DNA of 64,000 bases from positions 62,001 to 126,000 of the forward strand of contig JAFTZJ010000048.1 of assembly GCA_017461045.1 (NCBI GenBank), in the 5' to 3' direction. The notes beneath the pieces are model-generated. The model ran no database searches, was not told the origin of the DNA, and saw only the letters and a list, made by a program, of their open reading frames with translations. The position numbers and the translations under genes were made by a program. This stretch comes from Lachnospiraceae bacterium (GTDB lineage Bacteria > Bacillota > Clostridia > Lachnospirales > Lachnospiraceae). This document shows, in pieces, positions 9,696 to 42,632 of the stretch (position 1 is the stretch's first letter; each line of letters begins with the position of its first letter).

Positions 9696-10727
9696 ATGGA
9701 AGCAATTTTGAATGTATGGAATTCATTTATGACATTGCCGGAACGGGTACCGTTTTTGGTATATGTATACCTGATTGTAGGATTTGTATTATTAATTAAA
9801 GGTGCGGACTGGTTTGTAGATGGAGCTTCGGCAGTGGCCAAACTGTTAAAGATTCCGTCAGTGGTAATTGGACTTACCATTGTAGCCATGGGAACCAGTG
9901 CTCCAGAAGCAGCAGTTAGTATTACTGCAGGGTTAAGCGGTAGCAATGAAATTGCAATCAGTAATGTCATCGGTTCCAATATATTCAATTTATTGATGGT
10001 AATTGGTGTATGTGCAGCGATTAAGGCATTTGCTACGGATATGGAGATTCTAAAGAGGGATATGCCGGTAAATATTGGTGCAACGTTACTGCTACTCTTA
10101 TTTATATTAGATGGCAAATTGAGTCGTGTTGAAGCTGGCATTTTCCTTGTGGCATTGATTGTGTATTTAGTTTTTGTTGTACGTGCTGCATTAAAGAATC
10201 GAAAAACACAAATAGAAGTAGTAGAAGAATCCGAAAAGGAAGAGAAAAAGAAGAAACTTACCATACCTATAATTATTTTATGTATTATTGGTGGTTTGAT
10301 AGCCATCGTATGGGGTGGCGATTTGGTTGTTGATAATGCACAGCGAATTGCTTTGTCCTTCGGTATGAGCCCGATGTTGGTAGGCTTAACAATTGTAGCT
10401 ATGGGAACCTCTCTTCCGGAACTGGTAACATCAATTGTAGCATCAAGAAAGGGCGAAAGTGGTTTGGCACTTGGTAATGCAATTGGTTCCAGCATTTTTA
10501 ATATTCTTTTCATTTTAGGTATATCTGCAGTGCTTTCACCGATTGCCCCAACCGGTTCCGGTGTAATTGAAAGTATTACAGATACTGCAATATTAGCAGT
10601 TGTGTCTGTACTAATGTTGATTTTTGCAGCAACCGGTAAGAAGGTAAGCCGAGTGGAAGGAATCATATATGTAGTGCTTTATGCAGCCTATATGGCATTT
10701 GCTATTTTACGGTGTTATGTATTCTAA
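9696..10727 (+). CDS. Calcium/sodium antiporter, CaCA family (YrbG-like)
   Basis: 343-residue membrane protein with the two inverted alpha repeats of the CaCA superfamily. Repeat one carries VIGLTIVAMGTSAPE and later SNVIGSNIFNLL; repeat two carries LVGLTIVAMGTSLPE and GNAIGSSIFNILF. The acidic residue in each GTSxPE is the ion-binding glutamate. A charged cytosolic loop (EEKKKK) separates the halves. The length is usual for bacterial YrbG-type exchangers. It has its own terminator downstream and follows the VWA operon by 64 bases. Whether Ca2+ or another divalent cation is the substrate cannot be told from sequence. Confidence 0.92.
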   Translation: MEAILNVWNSFMTLPERVPFLVYVYLIVGFVLLIKGADWFVDGASAVAKLLKIPSVVIGLTIVAMGTSAPEAAVSITAGLSGSNEIAISNVIGSNIFNLLMVIGVCAAIKAFATDMEILKRDMPVNIGATLLLLLFILDGKLSRVEAGIFLVALIVYLVFVVRAALKNRKTQIEVVEESEKEEKKKKLTIPIIILCIIGGLIAIVWGGDLVVDNAQRIALSFGMSPMLVGLTIVAMGTSLPELVTSIVASRKGESGLALGNAIGSSIFNILFILGISAVLSPIAPTGSGVIESITDTAILAVVSVLMLIFAATGKKVSRVEGIIYVVLYAAYMAFAILRCYVF

Positions 10728-35656: not shown

Positions 35657-36583
35657 ATGCATTCACCATTGGAAATTGCTAGAAATTTTGTGGAAATAGG
35701 AATCCATAAGGCGAACATGTCGATTTTTAAGATGCTGGTATTGGGGTTTTTTGCCGGTATGTTTATTGGATTTGCCGGAGTTGCGGCTACTGTAGCATCT
35801 GCCACGGTTGAAGTGGGTTCGATTGCAAGACTGCTAAGTGCAGTGGTGTTTCCGGCAGGATTGGCTATGGTATTGATTGCCGGTAGTGAGCTGTTTACCG
35901 GTAACAATTTGATGATTCTTGCAGTTTTGGAGCAGAAGATATCCGCATTTCGTATGATTAAGAATTGGATATTCGTTGCAATCGGTAACTTCATCGGTGC
36001 AGCATTCGTTTCTGTATTAGTGGTGTATGGTCACACTCCGGATTTATTCGGTGGAGAATTGGCACAGGCAATTGTAAACTCCGGTGCGTCTAGAACGAGT
36101 TTAACCATACCGGATGCATTTATACGTGGTATTCTGTGTAACGTGTTGGTATGTCTGGCGGTATGGATGTCTTTTGCAGCAAAGCGTATGTCCGGAAAGC
36201 TGATTATTAGTTTTTGGCCGATTATGCTATTTGTTCTGTGTGGTTTCGAACATAGTATTGCTGATATGTATTTTGGAGTAGCGGCGTTGTTAACTGCAGA
36301 TAAGTATGAAATTGCTGTGGAAGGCTTAACATGGGGAAATCTCTTCTTGAATTGCCTGATTCCTGTTACCCTTGGTAATGTGGTTGGAGGTGCCGGAATA
36401 GTTGGTTTCGGTTATTGGCTCTGTTATCTGTGCCCAAGTCCGTTTATTCAGGCAACGGCGGAAGAAGAGCAGGAAGAAATCGATCTTGCAGAGGGTTACT
36501 ATAAGAGTCGGACAGAAAAGATTAAAGACAAATTAAAAGAAAAGATGAAAATGAAGGAATTCAAAGAACATAAAGAAAATTAA
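35657..36583 (+). CDS. Formate/nitrite transporter (FNT) family channel
   Basis: 308 residues. Six-helix FNT channel: FAGMFIGFAG, the AGSELFTGNNLMI loop region, NFIGAAFVS, GILCNVLVCLAVWM and GNVVGGAGIVGFGYW are all family positions. A Lys/Glu-rich tail of about 40 residues follows the last helix. It would pass formate, nitrite, lactate or hydrosulfide depending on subtype; formate export during fermentation is the likely use (inference). The ATG has CGGAGGT about ten bases upstream. It is directly followed by the riboswitch region. Confidence 0.9.
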   Translation: MHSPLEIARNFVEIGIHKANMSIFKMLVLGFFAGMFIGFAGVAATVASATVEVGSIARLLSAVVFPAGLAMVLIAGSELFTGNNLMILAVLEQKISAFRMIKNWIFVAIGNFIGAAFVSVLVVYGHTPDLFGGELAQAIVNSGASRTSLTIPDAFIRGILCNVLVCLAVWMSFAAKRMSGKLIISFWPIMLFVLCGFEHSIADMYFGVAALLTADKYEIAVEGLTWGNLFLNCLIPVTLGNVVGGAGIVGFGYWLCYLCPSPFIQATAEEEQEEIDLAEGYYKSRTEKIKDKLKEKMKMKEFKEHKEN

Positions 36584-36633
36584 AATATAAGTTCTTGACG
36601 TGGAGGAAATGTTCATGTTAGAATTCAGGCAGA

Positions 36634-36739
36634 TTGATATTAGGGAGTAGTTCGCATTCCGAACGGAGTGTTGTGCTTTTCGTCATCACGTTATTTATAA
36701 CCGGACAGCACATTGAGACAGGAACGAGACTTTTATCAC
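36634..36739 (+). ncRNA. Probable yybP-ykoY manganese riboswitch
   Basis: The stretch has the conserved parts in order: GGGAGTAG (36643-36650), a hairpin, CGTCATCACG (36681-36690), ACCGGACAGCA (36700-36710) and GAACGAGACTTTT closing the basal stem. The 5' TGATATTAG can pair with CTTTTATCA at 36730-36738. That closing segment also forms the 5' arm of the terminator, so ligand binding would free the polymerase. This is the yybP-ykoY layout as I know it (Mn2+ sensing), and a P-type cation ATPase lies downstream, a usual target. Called by eye, without a covariance model. Confidence 0.75.
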
Positions 36740-36768
36740 ACTTTTTGTGTGGTAAAGGTCTCTTTTTT
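36726..36768 (+). terminator. Riboswitch expression-platform terminator
   Basis: 16-bp stem (36726-36741 with 36747-36762), two G-T pairs, TTTTT loop, then six T. The 5' arm overlaps the riboswitch basal stem, giving mutually exclusive structures. Confidence 0.9.
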
Positions 36769-36842
36769 ATTTGAAAAATGACACTGAACTAAGGTAGGGG
36801 ACAATGCCCCGTTAGGAGAATAAGATTAGGAGGTAAAAGAAA

Positions 36843-37271
36843 ATGATTACAGCAAGTATACGAAGAATAACCATTTTTATAATGCTGGCGTTGCTGGTTT
36901 TCGGTTCAATTACCTTATCTACTCAATTGGATGTAATACAATCTTTAACGGAAACCACCGGTCGTTCTATCGGTGAAAGTAAAGACTCGAATTATATGCA
37001 GATTACATCAAGTAAACTGGATGTGCGACGGCTTGTAAAAGCGGAAGAACGGATGGCATTTAAGAACCAAATGAGCTTCGTTGCTCCGACTACAACCAAA
37101 ATCAAAAACACTCGTCGACAGATAGATTCTATTTCTTGCATGGCAGTTCTGTCATGCGCAATTGCTTGCTATTTTGAGCACTATCAAAGTGGAGTATGCA
37201 GTATCGGAAAGCAGGACACATCCGGTTATTGCATTATTCAGTATATTCAACTTCAGGATGGTAAAAAATAA
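36843..37271 (+). CDS. Unrecognised 142-residue membrane/secreted protein under the Mn riboswitch
   Basis: Not recognised. A hydrophobic segment at about 8-27 is a signal peptide or anchor. The middle is polar and basic (about 45-92). A cysteine-bearing hydrophobic stretch follows (CMAVLSCAIACYF), then two further cysteines and the end IIQYIQLQDGKK. In all there are five cysteines after residue 98. The start is well set by TTAGGAGGT at 36826-36834. It lies between the terminator of the riboswitch and the cation ATPase, so its expression should respond to Mn. A role as metal-sensing partner or small subunit of the ATPase is possible but only inferred. Confidence 0.6.
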   Translation: MITASIRRITIFIMLALLVFGSITLSTQLDVIQSLTETTGRSIGESKDSNYMQITSSKLDVRRLVKAEERMAFKNQMSFVAPTTTKIKNTRRQIDSISCMAVLSCAIACYFEHYQSGVCSIGKQDTSGYCIIQYIQLQDGKK

Positions 37272-37328
37272 TACCATTCTTCTTAACGTATTTCCAAGAA
37301 AAAATTGAATTGAATAGGAGGCTATCTT

Positions 37329-39992
37329 ATGGAAGCATTTTGGAAATGTTCGGTTCAGGAAATCGAACAAAAATTTAATGTTACCAAAGAAGGATTGAGC
37401 CAGGAACAGGTAGTTGAAATCCGGGAGAAATGCGGCGAAAACGTACTGTCAGAGAAAAAGCAGAAGAGCATAATTGCGGTATTCTTCGGACAATTTTGCG
37501 ATTTGTTGATTGTCATTTTGCTGATTGCAGCAGGAATTTCTATGTTCTCAGGCAATTTGGAAAGCACCATTGTAATTGTGTTGGTATTAATTATGAATGC
37601 GGTGTTAGGAACGGTTCAGCATGTGAAGGCACAACGTTCTTTGGAGAGTTTGAAGCAATTATCGTCACCTATGGCAAAGGTTTTGCGTGATGGTATGGTA
37701 CAGGAGGTTCCTTCCAGGGATATTGTACCGGGAGACGTGGTAATGCTGGAAGCGGGAGATTTGATTGTAGCAGACGGAAGAATTCTGCACAATTATTCTC
37801 TGCAGGTAAATGAAAGTGCTTTGACCGGCGAATCAACCAATGTAGATAAAACAGATGAAACCTTGACAGGTGATATTCCTTTAGGAGATCGAACCAATAT
37901 GGTATATTCCGGTAGTTTGGTAACTTATGGCCGGGCAGAGGTTGTAATTACGGCAACCGGTATGGATACCGAATTAGGTAAAATTGCAGGAATGATGAAT
38001 GACATTCAGGAGCGAAAGACTCCGTTACAGGTAAGTCTGGACCAGTTTAGTAAACGACTTGCCATATTAATTATGATTGTTTGTGTGATTGTATTTGGTC
38101 TGTGTATCTATCGCAAGATGCCGTTGTTAGATTCTATGATGTTTGCAGTTGCCTTGGCAGTTGCTGCTATTCCGGAAGCGTTGAGTTCCATTGTTACCAT
38201 TGTGCAGGCCATGGGAACACAGAAAATGGCAAAGGAACAGGCAATTATCAAAGAATTAAAGGCAGTAGAAAGCCTTGGATGTGTGTCTGTCATATGTTCG
38301 GATAAGACCGGAACCTTGACTCAGAATAAAATGACAGTAAAAAAAGTCTATATTAATCGAAATGAATTGGAACCGACAGAATTGAAGATTAGCGACCAGA
38401 CGCATCGGTATTTGTTATACAATGCCATTTTAACCAATGATTCCAGTTTGGTAGACGGTAAGGGAATCGGTGACCCAACGGAATACGCTTTGTTAGAAAT
38501 GCTCCGTCAGATACCGGTTCTGGAAAATGGTTTATTAAAGGAATGTGGTCTCCATGAGAATATGCTGCGTCATTCTATGAAACGATTGGAAGAGTTACCA
38601 TTTGATTCGACCAGAAAACTGATGAGTACAAAATATTGCTTACATGGTGTTTCAACGATTTTAACTAAGGGTGCCGTGGATGTGCTGTTGGATCGGTGTG
38701 ACCGGATTCGTACTTCCGATGGAATCCTACCAATGAGTCAGGAGGAACGGGAAGCAATACAGGAACAGAATCAGCGGTTTTCTGAGCAGGGCTTGCGTGT
38801 GCTTGCATTTGGTTATCGGGAAACAGAAGAAGCATTAACTATGGAAACAGAAACCGGATTTACATTTATTGGTTTAATCGCCATGGTTGATCCGCCTCGT
38901 CCGGAAGCCGTTGCTGCAGTGCGGGATGCAAAACACGCAGGTATTCGTACCGTAATGATTACCGGTGACCACAAAATTACGGCAACTGCGATTGCAAAGG
39001 AAATCGGTATTTTCAGTGAAGGTGATATGGCAGTAACCGGAATGGAATTAGACGCTATGTCGGATCAGGAACTGGATGAAGTAATACAGCGGATTACCGT
39101 ATATGCGAGAGTATCGCCGGAAAACAAGATTCGTATCGTAGAGGCATGGCAGCGTAAAGGTAAGATTGTGTCTATGACAGGAGATGATGTAAATGATGCA
39201 CCGGCTCTTAAGCGGGCAGATATCGGAGTTGCCATGGGAATTACCGGAACAGAAGTGTCAAAGGATGCTTCCGCTATGATTCTGGCAGATGATAATTTTG
39301 CGACTATAATCAAAGCAGTTTTGAATGGTAGAAATGTATATCGGAATATTAAGAATGCCATTCTCTTTTTGCTATCCGGAAATATGGCAGGAATTTTATC
39401 GGTGCTTTATACGTCCATTATGGCATTGCCGGTTCCGTTTGCTCCGGTGCACTTACTATTTATTAACCTATTAACAGATTCCTTGCCTGCTATTGCAATC
39501 GGTATGGAGCCAACGGATAAGACCTTACTGGATGAGAAACCGAGAGACCCGAAGGTAGGAATTTTGAACCGGAGCTTCTTCCTGCAAATGTTTGGTCAGG
39601 GTGTATTAATTGCAGTTGTAGTTATGGTAGCCTATTATCTTGGATTGCAGACCAGTGCGGCGGCAGCATCCACCTTTGCATTTGCAACCTTAACCTTGGC
39701 TCGGTTATTCCATGGTTTCAACTGTCGTAGTAAGTTATCCATGTTTAAGGCCGGATGGGGCTCAAATCCGTATAGTTTGTTGGCATTTGGTGCCGGCGTT
39801 TGCTTGTTGGTATTGGTACTGTTGGTACCGCCATTACAGAACTTGTTTAGTGTAGTACCACTGAGTGGTAAGGATTTTGTGGAGATTGTAGGACTTGCAA
39901 TGTTACCGACCATTTTGATTCAGATTTATAAATGGATTCGAGATTTGGTAGAAGAGCGAAGACAATATGAGGCAAAAGAAAGTAAAGAGTAA
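37329..39992 (+). CDS. P2-type cation-transporting ATPase (Ca2+/Mn2+ type)
   Basis: 887 residues, the full P2A/PMCA-like length. N-terminal cation ATPase domain, TGES in ESALTGESTNVDK, membrane motif AAIPEALSSIV (PEAL in place of PEGL), phosphorylation site DKTGT at Asp325, ITGDHKITATAIA and the hinge GDDVNDAPALKRADIG. The C-terminal helices include NLLTDSLPAIAIGME, an ion-site sequence of this class. Export of Ca2+ or Mn2+ is expected; the upstream riboswitch favours Mn2+. It follows the unknown 142-residue gene by 57 bases with SD AATAGGAGG. Confidence 0.92.
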   Translation: MEAFWKCSVQEIEQKFNVTKEGLSQEQVVEIREKCGENVLSEKKQKSIIAVFFGQFCDLLIVILLIAAGISMFSGNLESTIVIVLVLIMNAVLGTVQHVKAQRSLESLKQLSSPMAKVLRDGMVQEVPSRDIVPGDVVMLEAGDLIVADGRILHNYSLQVNESALTGESTNVDKTDETLTGDIPLGDRTNMVYSGSLVTYGRAEVVITATGMDTELGKIAGMMNDIQERKTPLQVSLDQFSKRLAILIMIVCVIVFGLCIYRKMPLLDSMMFAVALAVAAIPEALSSIVTIVQAMGTQKMAKEQAIIKELKAVESLGCVSVICSDKTGTLTQNKMTVKKVYINRNELEPTELKISDQTHRYLLYNAILTNDSSLVDGKGIGDPTEYALLEMLRQIPVLENGLLKECGLHENMLRHSMKRLEELPFDSTRKLMSTKYCLHGVSTILTKGAVDVLLDRCDRIRTSDGILPMSQEEREAIQEQNQRFSEQGLRVLAFGYRETEEALTMETETGFTFIGLIAMVDPPRPEAVAAVRDAKHAGIRTVMITGDHKITATAIAKEIGIFSEGDMAVTGMELDAMSDQELDEVIQRITVYARVSPENKIRIVEAWQRKGKIVSMTGDDVNDAPALKRADIGVAMGITGTEVSKDASAMILADDNFATIIKAVLNGRNVYRNIKNAILFLLSGNMAGILSVLYTSIMALPVPFAPVHLLFINLLTDSLPAIAIGMEPTDKTLLDEKPRDPKVGILNRSFFLQMFGQGVLIAVVVMVAYYLGLQTSAAAASTFAFATLTLARLFHGFNCRSKLSMFKAGWGSNPYSLLAFGAGVCLLVLVLLVPPLQNLFSVVPLSGKDFVEIVGLAMLPTILIQIYKWIRDLVEERRQYEAKESKE

Positions 39993-40013: not shown

Positions 40014-41072
40014 ATGGAATATGAGGTTTCGTTTGTATATTTCCTGCAACAAATGGGTGAACACCCAATGTTGTTGGTTTCTGTACTGTTAACCTTAGGA
40101 GTAATTTTTGTAAATGGCTGGACAGATGCACCGAATGCAATCGCAACCTGTGTATCTACCCGAAGTATCGGAGTGAATCAGGCGATTATTATGGCAGCAG
40201 CCTGTAACTTTTTAGGTGTGTTGGTTATGACCTTTTTTAATGCAAAGGTTGCTATGACAATTAAGAACATGGTGAACTTCGAGGGTGATAATCAAAAAGC
40301 GTTAATTGCCTTATGTGCAGCAATGGCGGCCATTGTAATCTGGGCAATAGGGGCATGGTTTTTCGGAATACCAACCAGTGAAAGTCATGCGTTAATTGCC
40401 GGTTTGACCGGTGCGGCTATTGCGTTACAAGGCGGTTTGAATGGTGTAAATGGAGCTGAATGGATAAAAGTTGTCTACGGACTGGTGTTATCCACTATTG
40501 GCGGCTTTGGACTTGGATTTTTGATTTGTAAGCTATTGTCCCTTTTATTTTACAACAGCAATCGGGAGAAGTTGAATCGATTTTTCCAAGGAGGACAGAT
40601 TGTAGGTGGTGCTGCTATGGCATTTGTACATGGAGCACAGGATGGACAGAAGTTTATGGGTGTATTACTGCTTGGGTTGTTCCTTGTTACAGGACAGGGT
40701 AATACCGATGGTGCAGTGGTGCCAATTTGGATGATGATTCTTTGCTCTGTAGTAATGGGTGTGGGAACATCTATTGGAGGAAAGAAAATTATCAAATCCG
40801 TTGGTATGGATATGGTAAAACTGGAAAAGTATCAGGGATTTTCAGCAGATATTGCGGCGTCAATTAGCATTTTGGCATCTACACTGTTTGGAATTCCGGT
40901 TAGTACCACTCATGTGAAGACAACGGCCATTATGGGCGTTGGAGCAGTGAAGCGGAAATCAGCTATTAACTATAGTGTCGTAAAGGAAATGATATTGGCT
41001 TGGGTGCTGACATTTCCGGGATGTGGGCTGATTGGATTCGGAATGGCAAAGCTGTTCTTGTTATTAATGTAG
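40014..41072 (+). CDS. pit: PiT-family inorganic phosphate transporter
   Basis: 352-residue membrane protein with two PD001131-like repeats: GWTDAPNAIATCVSTRS near the N-terminus and FVHGAQDGQKFMG in the second half, typical for PiT permeases (cation/phosphate symport). ESHALIAGLTGAAIA and STTHVKTTAIMGVGAV are further family motifs. It is 21 bases after the ATPase and is followed by a PhoU-like DUF47 gene, the usual partner. SD AAAGGAG precedes the ATG. Low-affinity phosphate or metal-phosphate uptake is expected. Confidence 0.93.
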   Translation: MEYEVSFVYFLQQMGEHPMLLVSVLLTLGVIFVNGWTDAPNAIATCVSTRSIGVNQAIIMAAACNFLGVLVMTFFNAKVAMTIKNMVNFEGDNQKALIALCAAMAAIVIWAIGAWFFGIPTSESHALIAGLTGAAIALQGGLNGVNGAEWIKVVYGLVLSTIGGFGLGFLICKLLSLLFYNSNREKLNRFFQGGQIVGGAAMAFVHGAQDGQKFMGVLLLGLFLVTGQGNTDGAVVPIWMMILCSVVMGVGTSIGGKKIIKSVGMDMVKLEKYQGFSADIAASISILASTLFGIPVSTTHVKTTAIMGVGAVKRKSAINYSVVKEMILAWVLTFPGCGLIGFGMAKLFLLLM

Positions 41073-41102
41073 AATAAAAGATTAACGGAAAGGAACATAA
41101 AT

Positions 41103-41723
41103 ATGAAAAAGAAGAAGGATGAATTTTATTATAAGAATCTTAACACATGTGTAGAGTATTCGTACGAGGCAGCCGGTTTGTTGCAGGATACGGTAAAGCA
41201 GTATGCAAAAGAGAGTTTGCAAGAGCGAATTGCACAAATGCATGAGATAGAACAACAGGCAGATTTTAAGAAACATAAAATGATGTCGGTGGTTAGTCAG
41301 GCATTTATTACACCGATTGAACGGGAAGATTTGGTTGCACTCAGTAATTATTTGGATGATATTACAGATGCCGTAGAAGATGTGTTGTTGCAGATTTATA
41401 TGTGTAACATTGATGAAATGCGGGAAGATATACTGCCGATGATTAAGCTTCTAAAGAAATGTATTCAGGCATTAGGAGATGTGATTGGAGAATTGAAGAA
41501 TTTCAAGCATTCTAAGAAATTGGCAGAATATATCATTAAGGTTAATGATTTAGAAGAACAGGGAGATAAGCTTTACATGGAAGCAATGCATCGATTACAT
41601 CAGGAATCAGATATCCGTACCATCATGATTTGGAGAAATATTTATGAATGCGTTGAAGTTTGCATGGATACCTGTGAGCATGCCGCAGATATTGTGGAAA
41701 CTGTTCGTATGAAGAATGTATAA
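41103..41723 (+). CDS. DUF47 PhoU-like regulator of PiT transport
   Basis: 206-residue all-helical protein of the DUF47 family (formerly PhoU-like, Pit accessory). Motifs include HEIEQQADFKKHKMM, PIEREDLVALSNYLDDITDAVED and EEQGDKLYMEAMHRL; acidic E/D-xxx-D clusters bind metals. These proteins are nearly always beside pit genes and probably modulate the transporter at the membrane. The ATG follows the pit stop by 30 bases with GGAAAGGAAC as SD. Confidence 0.92.
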   Translation: MKKKKDEFYYKNLNTCVEYSYEAAGLLQDTVKQYAKESLQERIAQMHEIEQQADFKKHKMMSVVSQAFITPIEREDLVALSNYLDDITDAVEDVLLQIYMCNIDEMREDILPMIKLLKKCIQALGDVIGELKNFKHSKKLAEYIIKVNDLEEQGDKLYMEAMHRLHQESDIRTIMIWRNIYECVEVCMDTCEHAADIVETVRMKNV

Positions 41724-41831
41724 GTCTTATTGGATTGAACGAATATATAAATCGGGTCTTACTAGACTAAAAGAATGTATTTGAAGAACATCGAATAAAT
41801 TGAAATAATAGATTCGTAAGGATTTGGAAGC

Positions 41832-42632
41832 ATGAAGAATTGGAAACAGTTATTGAAAGCAGTATGGATTGGTGCCACCATGACGATACCGGGAGTCTCC
41901 GGTGGCACGATGGCGGTAGTAACAGGCATCTATGAAGATTTGATTCATGCCGTAAACGGAGTTCGAAAGGAAGCGAAAAAGCATATAGGATTCTTGCTGC
42001 GGTTCCTCTTAGGGGCCGGTTGCGGATTTCTGTTGTTGGCACGCTTGGTAACATGGTTATTGGAACAACCCCAAATGGGAGAGATAACAAGATTTTTCTT
42101 TTGCGGAATCGTATTAGGAGGAATTCCTTTGCTGGTAAAGAAAGCAGAACTTTCTAAGGTATCGGTTTCCCATGTGTTATGTTTACTCTTGGGGGCAGGA
42201 ATTGTATTAGGTTTAGGTCAGATGCCACAAGGGCTTTTTTCGTCCGGAACCGGAATTGTATTCCTGTTATTACAGCTGGTTGGAGGATTCTTGATTGCGG
42301 TGGCGTTGGTGCTGCCGGGAATTAGTGTCAGTCACATGCTATATATTCTGGGACTTTATGAGATGGTGTTACAACGAATTTACGCCTTTCGATTCTGGGA
42401 ATTGATTCCTTTGGCAATTGGAGGAATATTGGGAACATTTCAGACGGCTGATGCATTAGAACGCTTGTTGGAGCGTTTCCCGTCCCAAGTGTATATGGCC
42501 ATAGTAGGATTTGTGGCAGGTTCTATTGTAACGCTGATACCTACAGGTGGATTTGCACAACCGGTCTGGGATGGTGTCCTTGGTGTGCTTGGATTTGTTG
42601 GCATGTACCTGTTGTCAAAGAAAGGGTTATAA
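41832..42632 (+). CDS. DUF368 membrane protein, putative undecaprenyl phosphate translocase
   Basis: 266 residues, about eight helices. The opening MTIPGVSGGTMAVVTGIYEDLI and the second LPGISVSHMLYILGLYE form the two PG(V/I)S repeats of DUF368. DUF368 proteins (PopT-type) have been reported to recycle the C55-P carrier across the membrane in Gram-positive bacteria. SD AAGGAT precedes the ATG. It lies 108 bases after the DUF47 gene and 46 bases before a metallo-hydrolase gene; no functional tie to phosphate import is established. Confidence 0.87.
   Translation: MKNWKQLLKAVWIGATMTIPGVSGGTMAVVTGIYEDLIHAVNGVRKEAKKHIGFLLRFLLGAGCGFLLLARLVTWLLEQPQMGEITRFFFCGIVLGGIPLLVKKAELSKVSVSHVLCLLLGAGIVLGLGQMPQGLFSSGTGIVFLLLQLVGGFLIAVALVLPGISVSHMLYILGLYEMVLQRIYAFRFWELIPLAIGGILGTFQTADALERLLERFPSQVYMAIVGFVAGSIVTLIPTGGFAQPVWDGVLGVLGFVGMYLLSKKGL

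Follow-up and report, generated by a model that had tools for sequence, protein, structure and literature searches.

A candidate DGxK-stop translation-arrest leader between a predicted Mn2+ riboswitch and a cation ATPase gene in a Lachnospiraceae bacterium

In a 64,000-nucleotide (nt) stretch of a Lachnospiraceae bacterium genome (GenBank assembly GCA_017461045.1, contig JAFTZJ010000048.1, positions 62,001 to 126,000 of the forward strand), hereafter called the window and numbered from its first letter, a leader of the yybP-ykoY (Mn2+) riboswitch type, an open reading frame (ORF) of 142 codons (36843..37271) and a cation ATPase gene (37329..39992) follow each other on the plus strand. We propose, at a probability of roughly 60%, that the 142-codon ORF is a D-G-x-K-stop translation-arrest leader stacked behind the riboswitch, gating the ATPase twice. 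The leader, its overlap with a terminator and the ORF itself were observed, as were the conservation of the C-terminal motif of the ORF at the protein level and its recurrence at the same place in three congeneric species and at one further locus (L006). Members of the same ORF family were also found ahead of transporters and secD.

We infer the following course for the stall, from what sets it off to how it acts on the ATPase. High Mn2+ would stabilise the basal stem of the aptamer and prevent the terminator, and RNA polymerase would enter the leader ORF. The N-terminal membrane segment of the ORF product would then engage the membrane-insertion or export machinery. When insertion is slow, the nascent chain, with IIQYIQLQDGKK at its end, would stall the ribosome on the stop codon, and the stalled ribosome would alter translation or stability of the ATPase message so that more pump is made. 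Extraction of the nascent chain would then end the stall.

The ORF is preceded by an AGGAGG Shine-Dalgarno (SD) site and encodes a protein with an N-terminal membrane segment at about residues 9-28 (hydropathy 2.24 at residue 9), a variable middle, a weaker second hydrophobic stretch at about residues 94-112, and a motif that ends at residue 142. The motif IIQYIQLQDGKK plus the stop codon (37233..37271, plus strand) is the predicted stalling site, as judged from alignments, codon counts and a published DGMK-stop motif. Within it, the D-G-K-K codons (37257-37268) stand directly before TAA (37269-37271), and more than 100 residues separate the signal from the motif. We favour an arrest leader because SecM, MifM and VemP are built on the same plan (a membrane signal, a hypervariable body, a conserved C-terminal end and then a gene for a membrane protein), and because the DGKK-stop of the window matches the published stalling motif.

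In the accessible text of Fujiwara et al. 2024 (PMC10987492), uDF_DGMK-stop denotes six Clostridia ORFs upstream of secDF that end in D-G-M-K-stop. Stalling in vitro gave approximately 30-50% peptidyl-tRNA with E. coli ribosomes and more than 50% with B. subtilis ribosomes; the stop codon was most likely in the A site during the stall, and residues -4 to -1 as well as the stop codon were required (PMC10987492). As far as that text goes, uDF_DGMK-stop and the window ORF are alike in the N-terminal localization signal, the DGxK-stop ending, the position upstream of a membrane-protein gene and the occurrence in Clostridia, and the last lysine is at position 139 in the tested uDF_DGMK-stop versus 142 in the window ORF. 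Compared by the motif as described there, the window family differs in a longer motif, [IV]I.YI[HQ]..DG.K, and in residues that follow DGxK in most members. SecM, MifM and VemP, in the accounts available, likewise have an N-terminal signal or transmembrane (TM) segment, a variable middle, an arrest sequence near the C-terminus and a place as upstream ORF in an operon, whereas their arrest sequences are other ones and their targets are secA, yidC2 and secDF, not ion pumps.

A search of 5.8 billion proteins with the single 142-residue sequence returned its own cluster only, and Pfam and NCBIfam held no family for the protein or its relatives. The orphan status suggested by this search and by a plasmid tblastn was rejected after synteny and profile searches. 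In the congener G005 (locus L003), leader, a 115-codon ORF and ATPase stand in the same order as in the window, and the two ORFs have the N-terminal membrane segment and the ending IQYIQxQDGKK in common. A two-sequence profile made from them detected a 140-codon ORF at the same place in congener G001 (ending TIRYIQSQDGKK, E 0.2). Among eight genomes of the genus, including the window's own genome (67.5% complete), the ATPase was found at E<=1e-100 in three and the ORF in exactly these three; no ORF match was present at E<=10 in the remaining five. Weak profile matches that stopped short of the motif end, such as that in congener G002 (E 0.29), were treated as chance. The order at L006 is leader, family member, pyruvate-kinase-like gene and ATPase, and L157 (genome G128) shows family member, pyruvate-kinase-like gene and ATPase without a match to R1, the leader model described below. 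The proteins between small ORF and ATPase at these two loci (L006 2401-2979; L157 4362-4904, minus strand) are shortened pyruvate-kinase-barrel proteins of 181-193 residues, and full-length pyruvate kinase was seen 3' of other family members (L167 and L171 by Pfam, L180 by eye).

A whole-ORF profile and a last-45-residue profile, each searched against 299 genomes, brought up ORFs of approximately 115-175 codons built like the window ORF, with a membrane segment at the N-terminus, a middle part that varies and a C-terminal end resembling [IV]I.YI[HQ]..DG.K. From the listed matches, 31 regions reaching or nearly reaching the motif end were picked by hand; four of them (L170, L175, L178, L184), in which the search expression found no motif ORF, were left out. 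The resulting set of 32 members comprises 27 fetched regions together with the window, L003, congener region L089, L006 and L103. This small-ORF family is fast-evolving and previously undescribed. When the 32-member profile was run against a large protein database, 11 proteins were found at E<=10, and the two named ones were called 'hypothetical protein'. An additional search covered 343 genomes of the order; of its 30 loci 12 were inspected, with a motif ORF in seven and none by the expression in five.

All 32 members have an N-terminal hydrophobic stretch (19-residue mean of at least 1.66). Identity to the window protein is 10-21% across the alignment, the C-terminal motif alone being well conserved: Y/F was found in 32 members, I in 31, H/Q in 32, D in 32, G in 32 and K in 30, of which Y, I, H, D and G were partly imposed by the search expression (some alternatives were allowed except at G) and the final K was not. 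The motif codons vary synonymously (GAT/GAC 20/12; GGA/GGT/GGG/GGC 15/8/7/2), and therefore selection acts on the protein. No cysteine is invariant among the relatives of this protein, which a sequence-only reading of the locus had described as cysteine-bearing.

Between DGxK and the stop codon there are no residues in eight of the 32 members, giving an exact DGxK-stop (the window included), one residue in seven, 2-3 in five and 6-11 in 12. With 0-11 residues beyond DGxK, the motif lies close enough to the C-terminus to be a post-synthesis tag by which small secreted or anchored proteins are degraded or sorted; the transporter neighbours would then be a by-product. We consider such a tag very unlikely, since it leaves the repeated position ahead of transporters and secD unexplained and gives no account of the exact DGKK-stop or of the recurrence within the riboswitch unit.

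The neighbours of the 32 members were counted as same-strand genes within approximately 2.2 kb downstream. An ion transporter or ion-pumping ATPase was found downstream of 17 members. A P-type ATPase follows five (window, L003, L089, L006, L157), three of which are congeners and not independent; a Na/Ca exchanger follows six (L159, L161, L165, L167, L176, L181), a CitMHS/ArsB carrier three (L177, L182, L183), a Na/Pi carrier two (L172, L180) and an ATP synthase a-subunit one (L164). Adding VCA0040 (L169), SecD (L173) and YitT (L162) raises the count to 20 of 32. The other 12 are L154, L155, L156, L158, L160, L163, L166, L168, L171, L174, L179 and L103, among which L171 has pyruvate kinase, L174 has a P-type ATPase upstream, and the contig ends at L103. 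Further cases came from the order-wide search, with L192 and L208 ahead of CitMHS/ArsB carriers and L199 ahead of an ATP synthase a-subunit. Of 40 genomes sampled, 23 have a Na/Ca exchanger, usually as a single gene, and the chance of six exchanger neighbours among 31 is about 2e-14 if approximately 2,500 genes per genome are assumed, for a set that was not randomly drawn. In a secD survey, 300 of 391 genomes searched had a match; among the best 30 secD loci fetched, a DGxK-ending ORF lay directly 5' of secD in two, L218 (FIHDSDGEK plus a tail) and L223, the latter a look-alike with DGKK-stop in which the YIH part is missing. The query locus L173 (YIHRSDGKK plus a tail) is a third ORF directly upstream of secD. 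The sequence-only reading had assigned the small protein to manganese homeostasis; a role specific to manganese does not agree with a family that also precedes Na/Ca exchangers, CitMHS/ArsB and Na/Pi carriers, ATP synthase and secD.

That family genes adjoin many ion transporters could also be explained by a stable accessory protein with one or two TM segments that binds transporters through its conserved tail and is co-induced with the ATPase by the Mn riboswitch. Tiny one-TM ORFs, often next to members and suggestive of small membrane subunits, would fit such a protein, as would the hydrophobic stretch that ends approximately 7-31 residues ahead of the motif in many members. This explanation appears unlikely to us, because little is conserved beyond the last 12 or so residues, because the neighbouring transporters are mutually unrelated and include secD and ATP synthase, and because the second hydrophobic segment before the motif is weak in the closest relatives (0.86 in L003, 0.67 in L089), which would place the tails on different sides of the membrane. 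We rate the idea that the window protein is a partner of the ATPase, raised from the sequence alone, below a cis-acting arrest leader on the same grounds of motif-only conservation and inconstant second hydrophobic segment, together with the DGKK-stop. The tiny ORFs just 3' of members (L154, L155, L159-L163, L165, L167, L169, L172, L176, L180, L181, L193, L196) were sorted by eye into a WWxENG-like type with an acidic tail, a type ending TDKxLPDxK and a type ending IYRKxKYGxSLYD; none is present in the window.

How a stalled ribosome might act on the next gene was modelled as unmasking of the next SD site. Of 32 members given, 27 could be evaluated and 11 of these reached a gain of at least 0.3; of 211 control ORF ends from the same regions, 77 could be evaluated and 8 reached it (one-sided Mann-Whitney p 0.003). 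A simple hairpin masking the ATPase SD site in the window was looked for and not found.

Several points weigh against an arrest leader. The modelled gain is 0.04 in the window and 0.06 in L003, with 0.53 in L089. Stalling by the window ORF is predicted from motif likeness, and its position -2 is K, whereas the published motif is DGMK; in the accessible text, mutation of DGMK at any of the positions -4 to -1 affected stalling, and a stop-less DGMK-lacZ fusion gave mostly full-length product (PMC10987492). In the family, 24 of 32 members have 1-11 residues beyond DGxK, and part of the invariance of the motif comes from the search expression, as given above. The published uDF_DGMK-stop ORFs, as far as they are described there, all precede secDF, whereas the window ORF stands between a predicted riboswitch and a cation ATPase gene. 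Several members would also be compatible with a two-TM protein whose tail is cytoplasmic. Finally, the arrangement is rare among ATPase loci. The best 80 of 205 ATPase relatives were fetched, and counts were made on the 78 that have 200 nt or more of upstream sequence; a DGxK-type ORF within 1.5 kb upstream was found at only two of them (L003, L006), the other 76 having none.

The sequence-only reading had asked whether homologues of the small protein recur beside riboswitch-linked ATPases. They do in the window's own genome, in both ATPase-bearing congeners and at L006, but such cases are few among the 78 loci. Both ends of the leader motif were found in the correct order upstream of 71 of the 78 loci, and the leader starts no more than 311 nt from the ATPase in 67 of these 71. 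Such spacing, the 76 loci lacking the ORF and the low similarity of the ORF between species are what an ordinary Mn-riboswitch-controlled ATPase with a functionless, fast-evolving passenger would show. This is the least probable of the explanations we considered, as the ORF is retained in all four of the places just named, has a good SD site and carries a motif conserved at the protein level over many genera.

The predicted riboswitch aptamer (36633..36741, plus strand), a variant below detection by the Rfam model RF00080, contains the elements GGGAGTAG (36643-36650), CGTCATCACG (36681-36690), ACCGGACAGCA (36700-36710) and GAACGAGAC (36722-36730). The conserved L1/L3-type loop sequences of yybP-ykoY we take to be GGGAGUAG and GUCANNACG. 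An intrinsic terminator identified by folding and sequence (36726..36768, plus strand) forms a hairpin of 16 pairs at 36726-36762 followed by a U tail; its 5' arm shares letters with the 3' strand of the aptamer basal stem. Within this 5' arm, CTTTTATC (36730-36737) has an alternative partner in GATATTAG (36636-36643), with 6 of 8 positions able to pair, so that basal stem and terminator are mutually exclusive. An overlap of this kind, read from the letters, is as expected for the expression platform of a yybP-ykoY switch. The leader fold was more stable than 200 of 200 shuffled sequences (z -4.9). The yybP-ykoY parts named in the sequence-only reading, the terminator sharing the basal stem, the 142-residue gene with its strong SD site and the P2-type ATPase were all present on the plus strand.

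The covariance-model check proposed for the leader gave no match: RF00080 found nothing at or above its gathering score across the 64-kb window, nothing at E<=1 in 36560-36860 and, in the own genome, nothing at the leader position even at E<=10. A match of the microRNA model RF03664 at the terminator hairpin (20.7 bits versus a gathering score of 74) was rejected as weak. The covariance model R1 comprises 26 ATPase leaders from other species, with the window and its two congeners left out. In its automatically derived fold of 18 pairs, 10 vary on both sides and 6 are invariant; this fold differs from the published four-helix fold, so that R1 tests sequence more than structure. R1 matched the window at 36633-36741 with 74.5 bits (E 1.1e-15), the sole match in 64 kb at E<=10. 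This match, together with the leader type at most relatives of the ATPase (below), bears out the Mn-riboswitch class named earlier from the letters: despite the Rfam miss, the window leader is of the yybP-ykoY type by sequence, and we infer that it binds Mn2+.

The yoaB riboswitch of L. lactis (RF00080) is, in the accessible text, a yybP-ykoY Mn2+ ON-switch working through competition between stem and terminator (PMC9190785). In comparison with that account, the window leader has the same L1/L3-type loops and a basal switch helix competing with a terminator, and ON logic would be expected. Pairing of such a riboswitch with an ATPase is also described for S. pneumoniae MgtA (CaxP), an efflux P-type Mn2+/Ca2+ ATPase under a yybP-ykoY riboswitch; a leader ORF between the two is not mentioned for mgtA in the accessible text (PMC11434433).

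The same leader type is present at 73 of the 78 ATPase loci, 26 of them in R1 and 47 among the 52 others searched with it, some of these 47 matches being weak, down to E 0.87. At E<=1, R1 matched 48 of 53 other loci, many weakly, i.e. the 47 ATPase loci and congener region L089; ATPase loci without a match were L008, L017, L058, L080 and L081. RF00080 gave no match above cut-off in 41 relatives, with five sub-threshold matches at E<=0.1, and a separate scan of 16 loci (L003-L018) found none at gathering score, though 14 carry the leader. The window leader is thus a compact variant, common ahead of this ATPase family and below detection by the Rfam model, and the number of Mn riboswitches in Clostridia may be underestimated by RF00080. 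Visual inspection showed at least three leader sequence types ahead of the one ATPase family in L003-L082: window-like, bromii-like and 'TTTTAATGCAT..GTCAACA'. At L009, a Mn-type leader (866-989) stands ahead of a 428-codon ORF of another family (1044-2327), followed by the ATPase.

R1 has another strong site in the own genome (G000:C40:8595-8696, L216; 73.5 bits), directly 5' of a Na/Ca exchanger gene which the assembly shows divided between two frames, with an MntP-family gene upstream (Pfam); this site, too, is not among the RF00080 matches in the genome. A third R1 site there is weak (29.8 bits). Mn-riboswitch control of the whole small-ORF family was rejected, as R1 leaders were found at 2 of 28 member regions only; a smaller scan matched the same 2 of 19 loci, 17 of which had a confirmed member. 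The R1 aptamers at L165 and L168 belong to the neighbouring exchanger and not to the small ORF. The leader-like GGGGAGTAG 3' of the L103 ORF, where the contig ends, was rejected for want of an R1 match.

Upstream of the leader, a consensus scan located a sigma-70-like promoter, TTGACG-18-TAGAAT (36595..36624, plus strand; 10 of 12 matches, with TG ahead of the second hexamer), in a region where five promoter-like sites were found versus 2.2 expected. The promoter letters TTCTTGACG..TGTTAGAAT are common to the window, L003 and L089. Between ORF and ATPase gene lies a 57-nt gap (37272..37328, plus strand) with AGGAGG at 37316-37321 serving the ATPase. The latter, a predicted P2A-type cation (Ca2+/Mn2+-like) ATPase of 887 residues, has the Pfam domains E1-E2_ATPase, Cation_ATPase_N and Cation_ATPase_C; its best NCBIfam model was TIGR01522 (PMR1-type, 647 bits, under the cut-off of 798), and TIGR01116 reached 642 bits (under 703). 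A formate/nitrite transporter gene is located 5' of the unit (Pfam). On its 3' side, genes for a PHO4-family phosphate transporter, a PhoU-like protein and a VCA0040-like protein occupy 40014-42632, and VCA0040-like and Na/Pi carrier genes likewise stand 3' of other family members (L169, L172, L180). A separate Na/Ca exchanger gene at about 9762-10706 of the window (G000:C21:71762-72706) has no R1 match.

The pairing of a riboswitch with an ATPase is already known; a DGxK leader within such a unit and a family of these leaders ahead of ion transporters would be new. By title and abstract, among papers on arrest leaders with transporter or Clostridia topics, no report of DGxK leaders at ion-transporter genes was found, and no wider claim is made. 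Arrest leaders of the DGxK kind have so far been described at protein-localization genes. The compact Mn-riboswitch form described here is common and escapes the Rfam model, and the window offers a case open to direct testing, with a candidate arrest leader placed after a predicted riboswitch. Tentatively, a large family of DGxK arrest leaders may set ion-pump levels in Lachnospiraceae-type bacteria according to the success of membrane-protein insertion or export; Ca/Mn ATPases, Na/Ca exchangers, CitMHS/ArsB and Na/Pi carriers and ATP synthase could all be among the pumps so covered, and behind the Mn2+ riboswitch of the window a single message might read the metal through RNA and the state of insertion through the nascent chain. 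If this is so, the position of the family ahead of ion transporters would couple ion pumping across the membrane with the membrane-insertion machinery, and many 'hypothetical' small genes of these bacteria would be explained.

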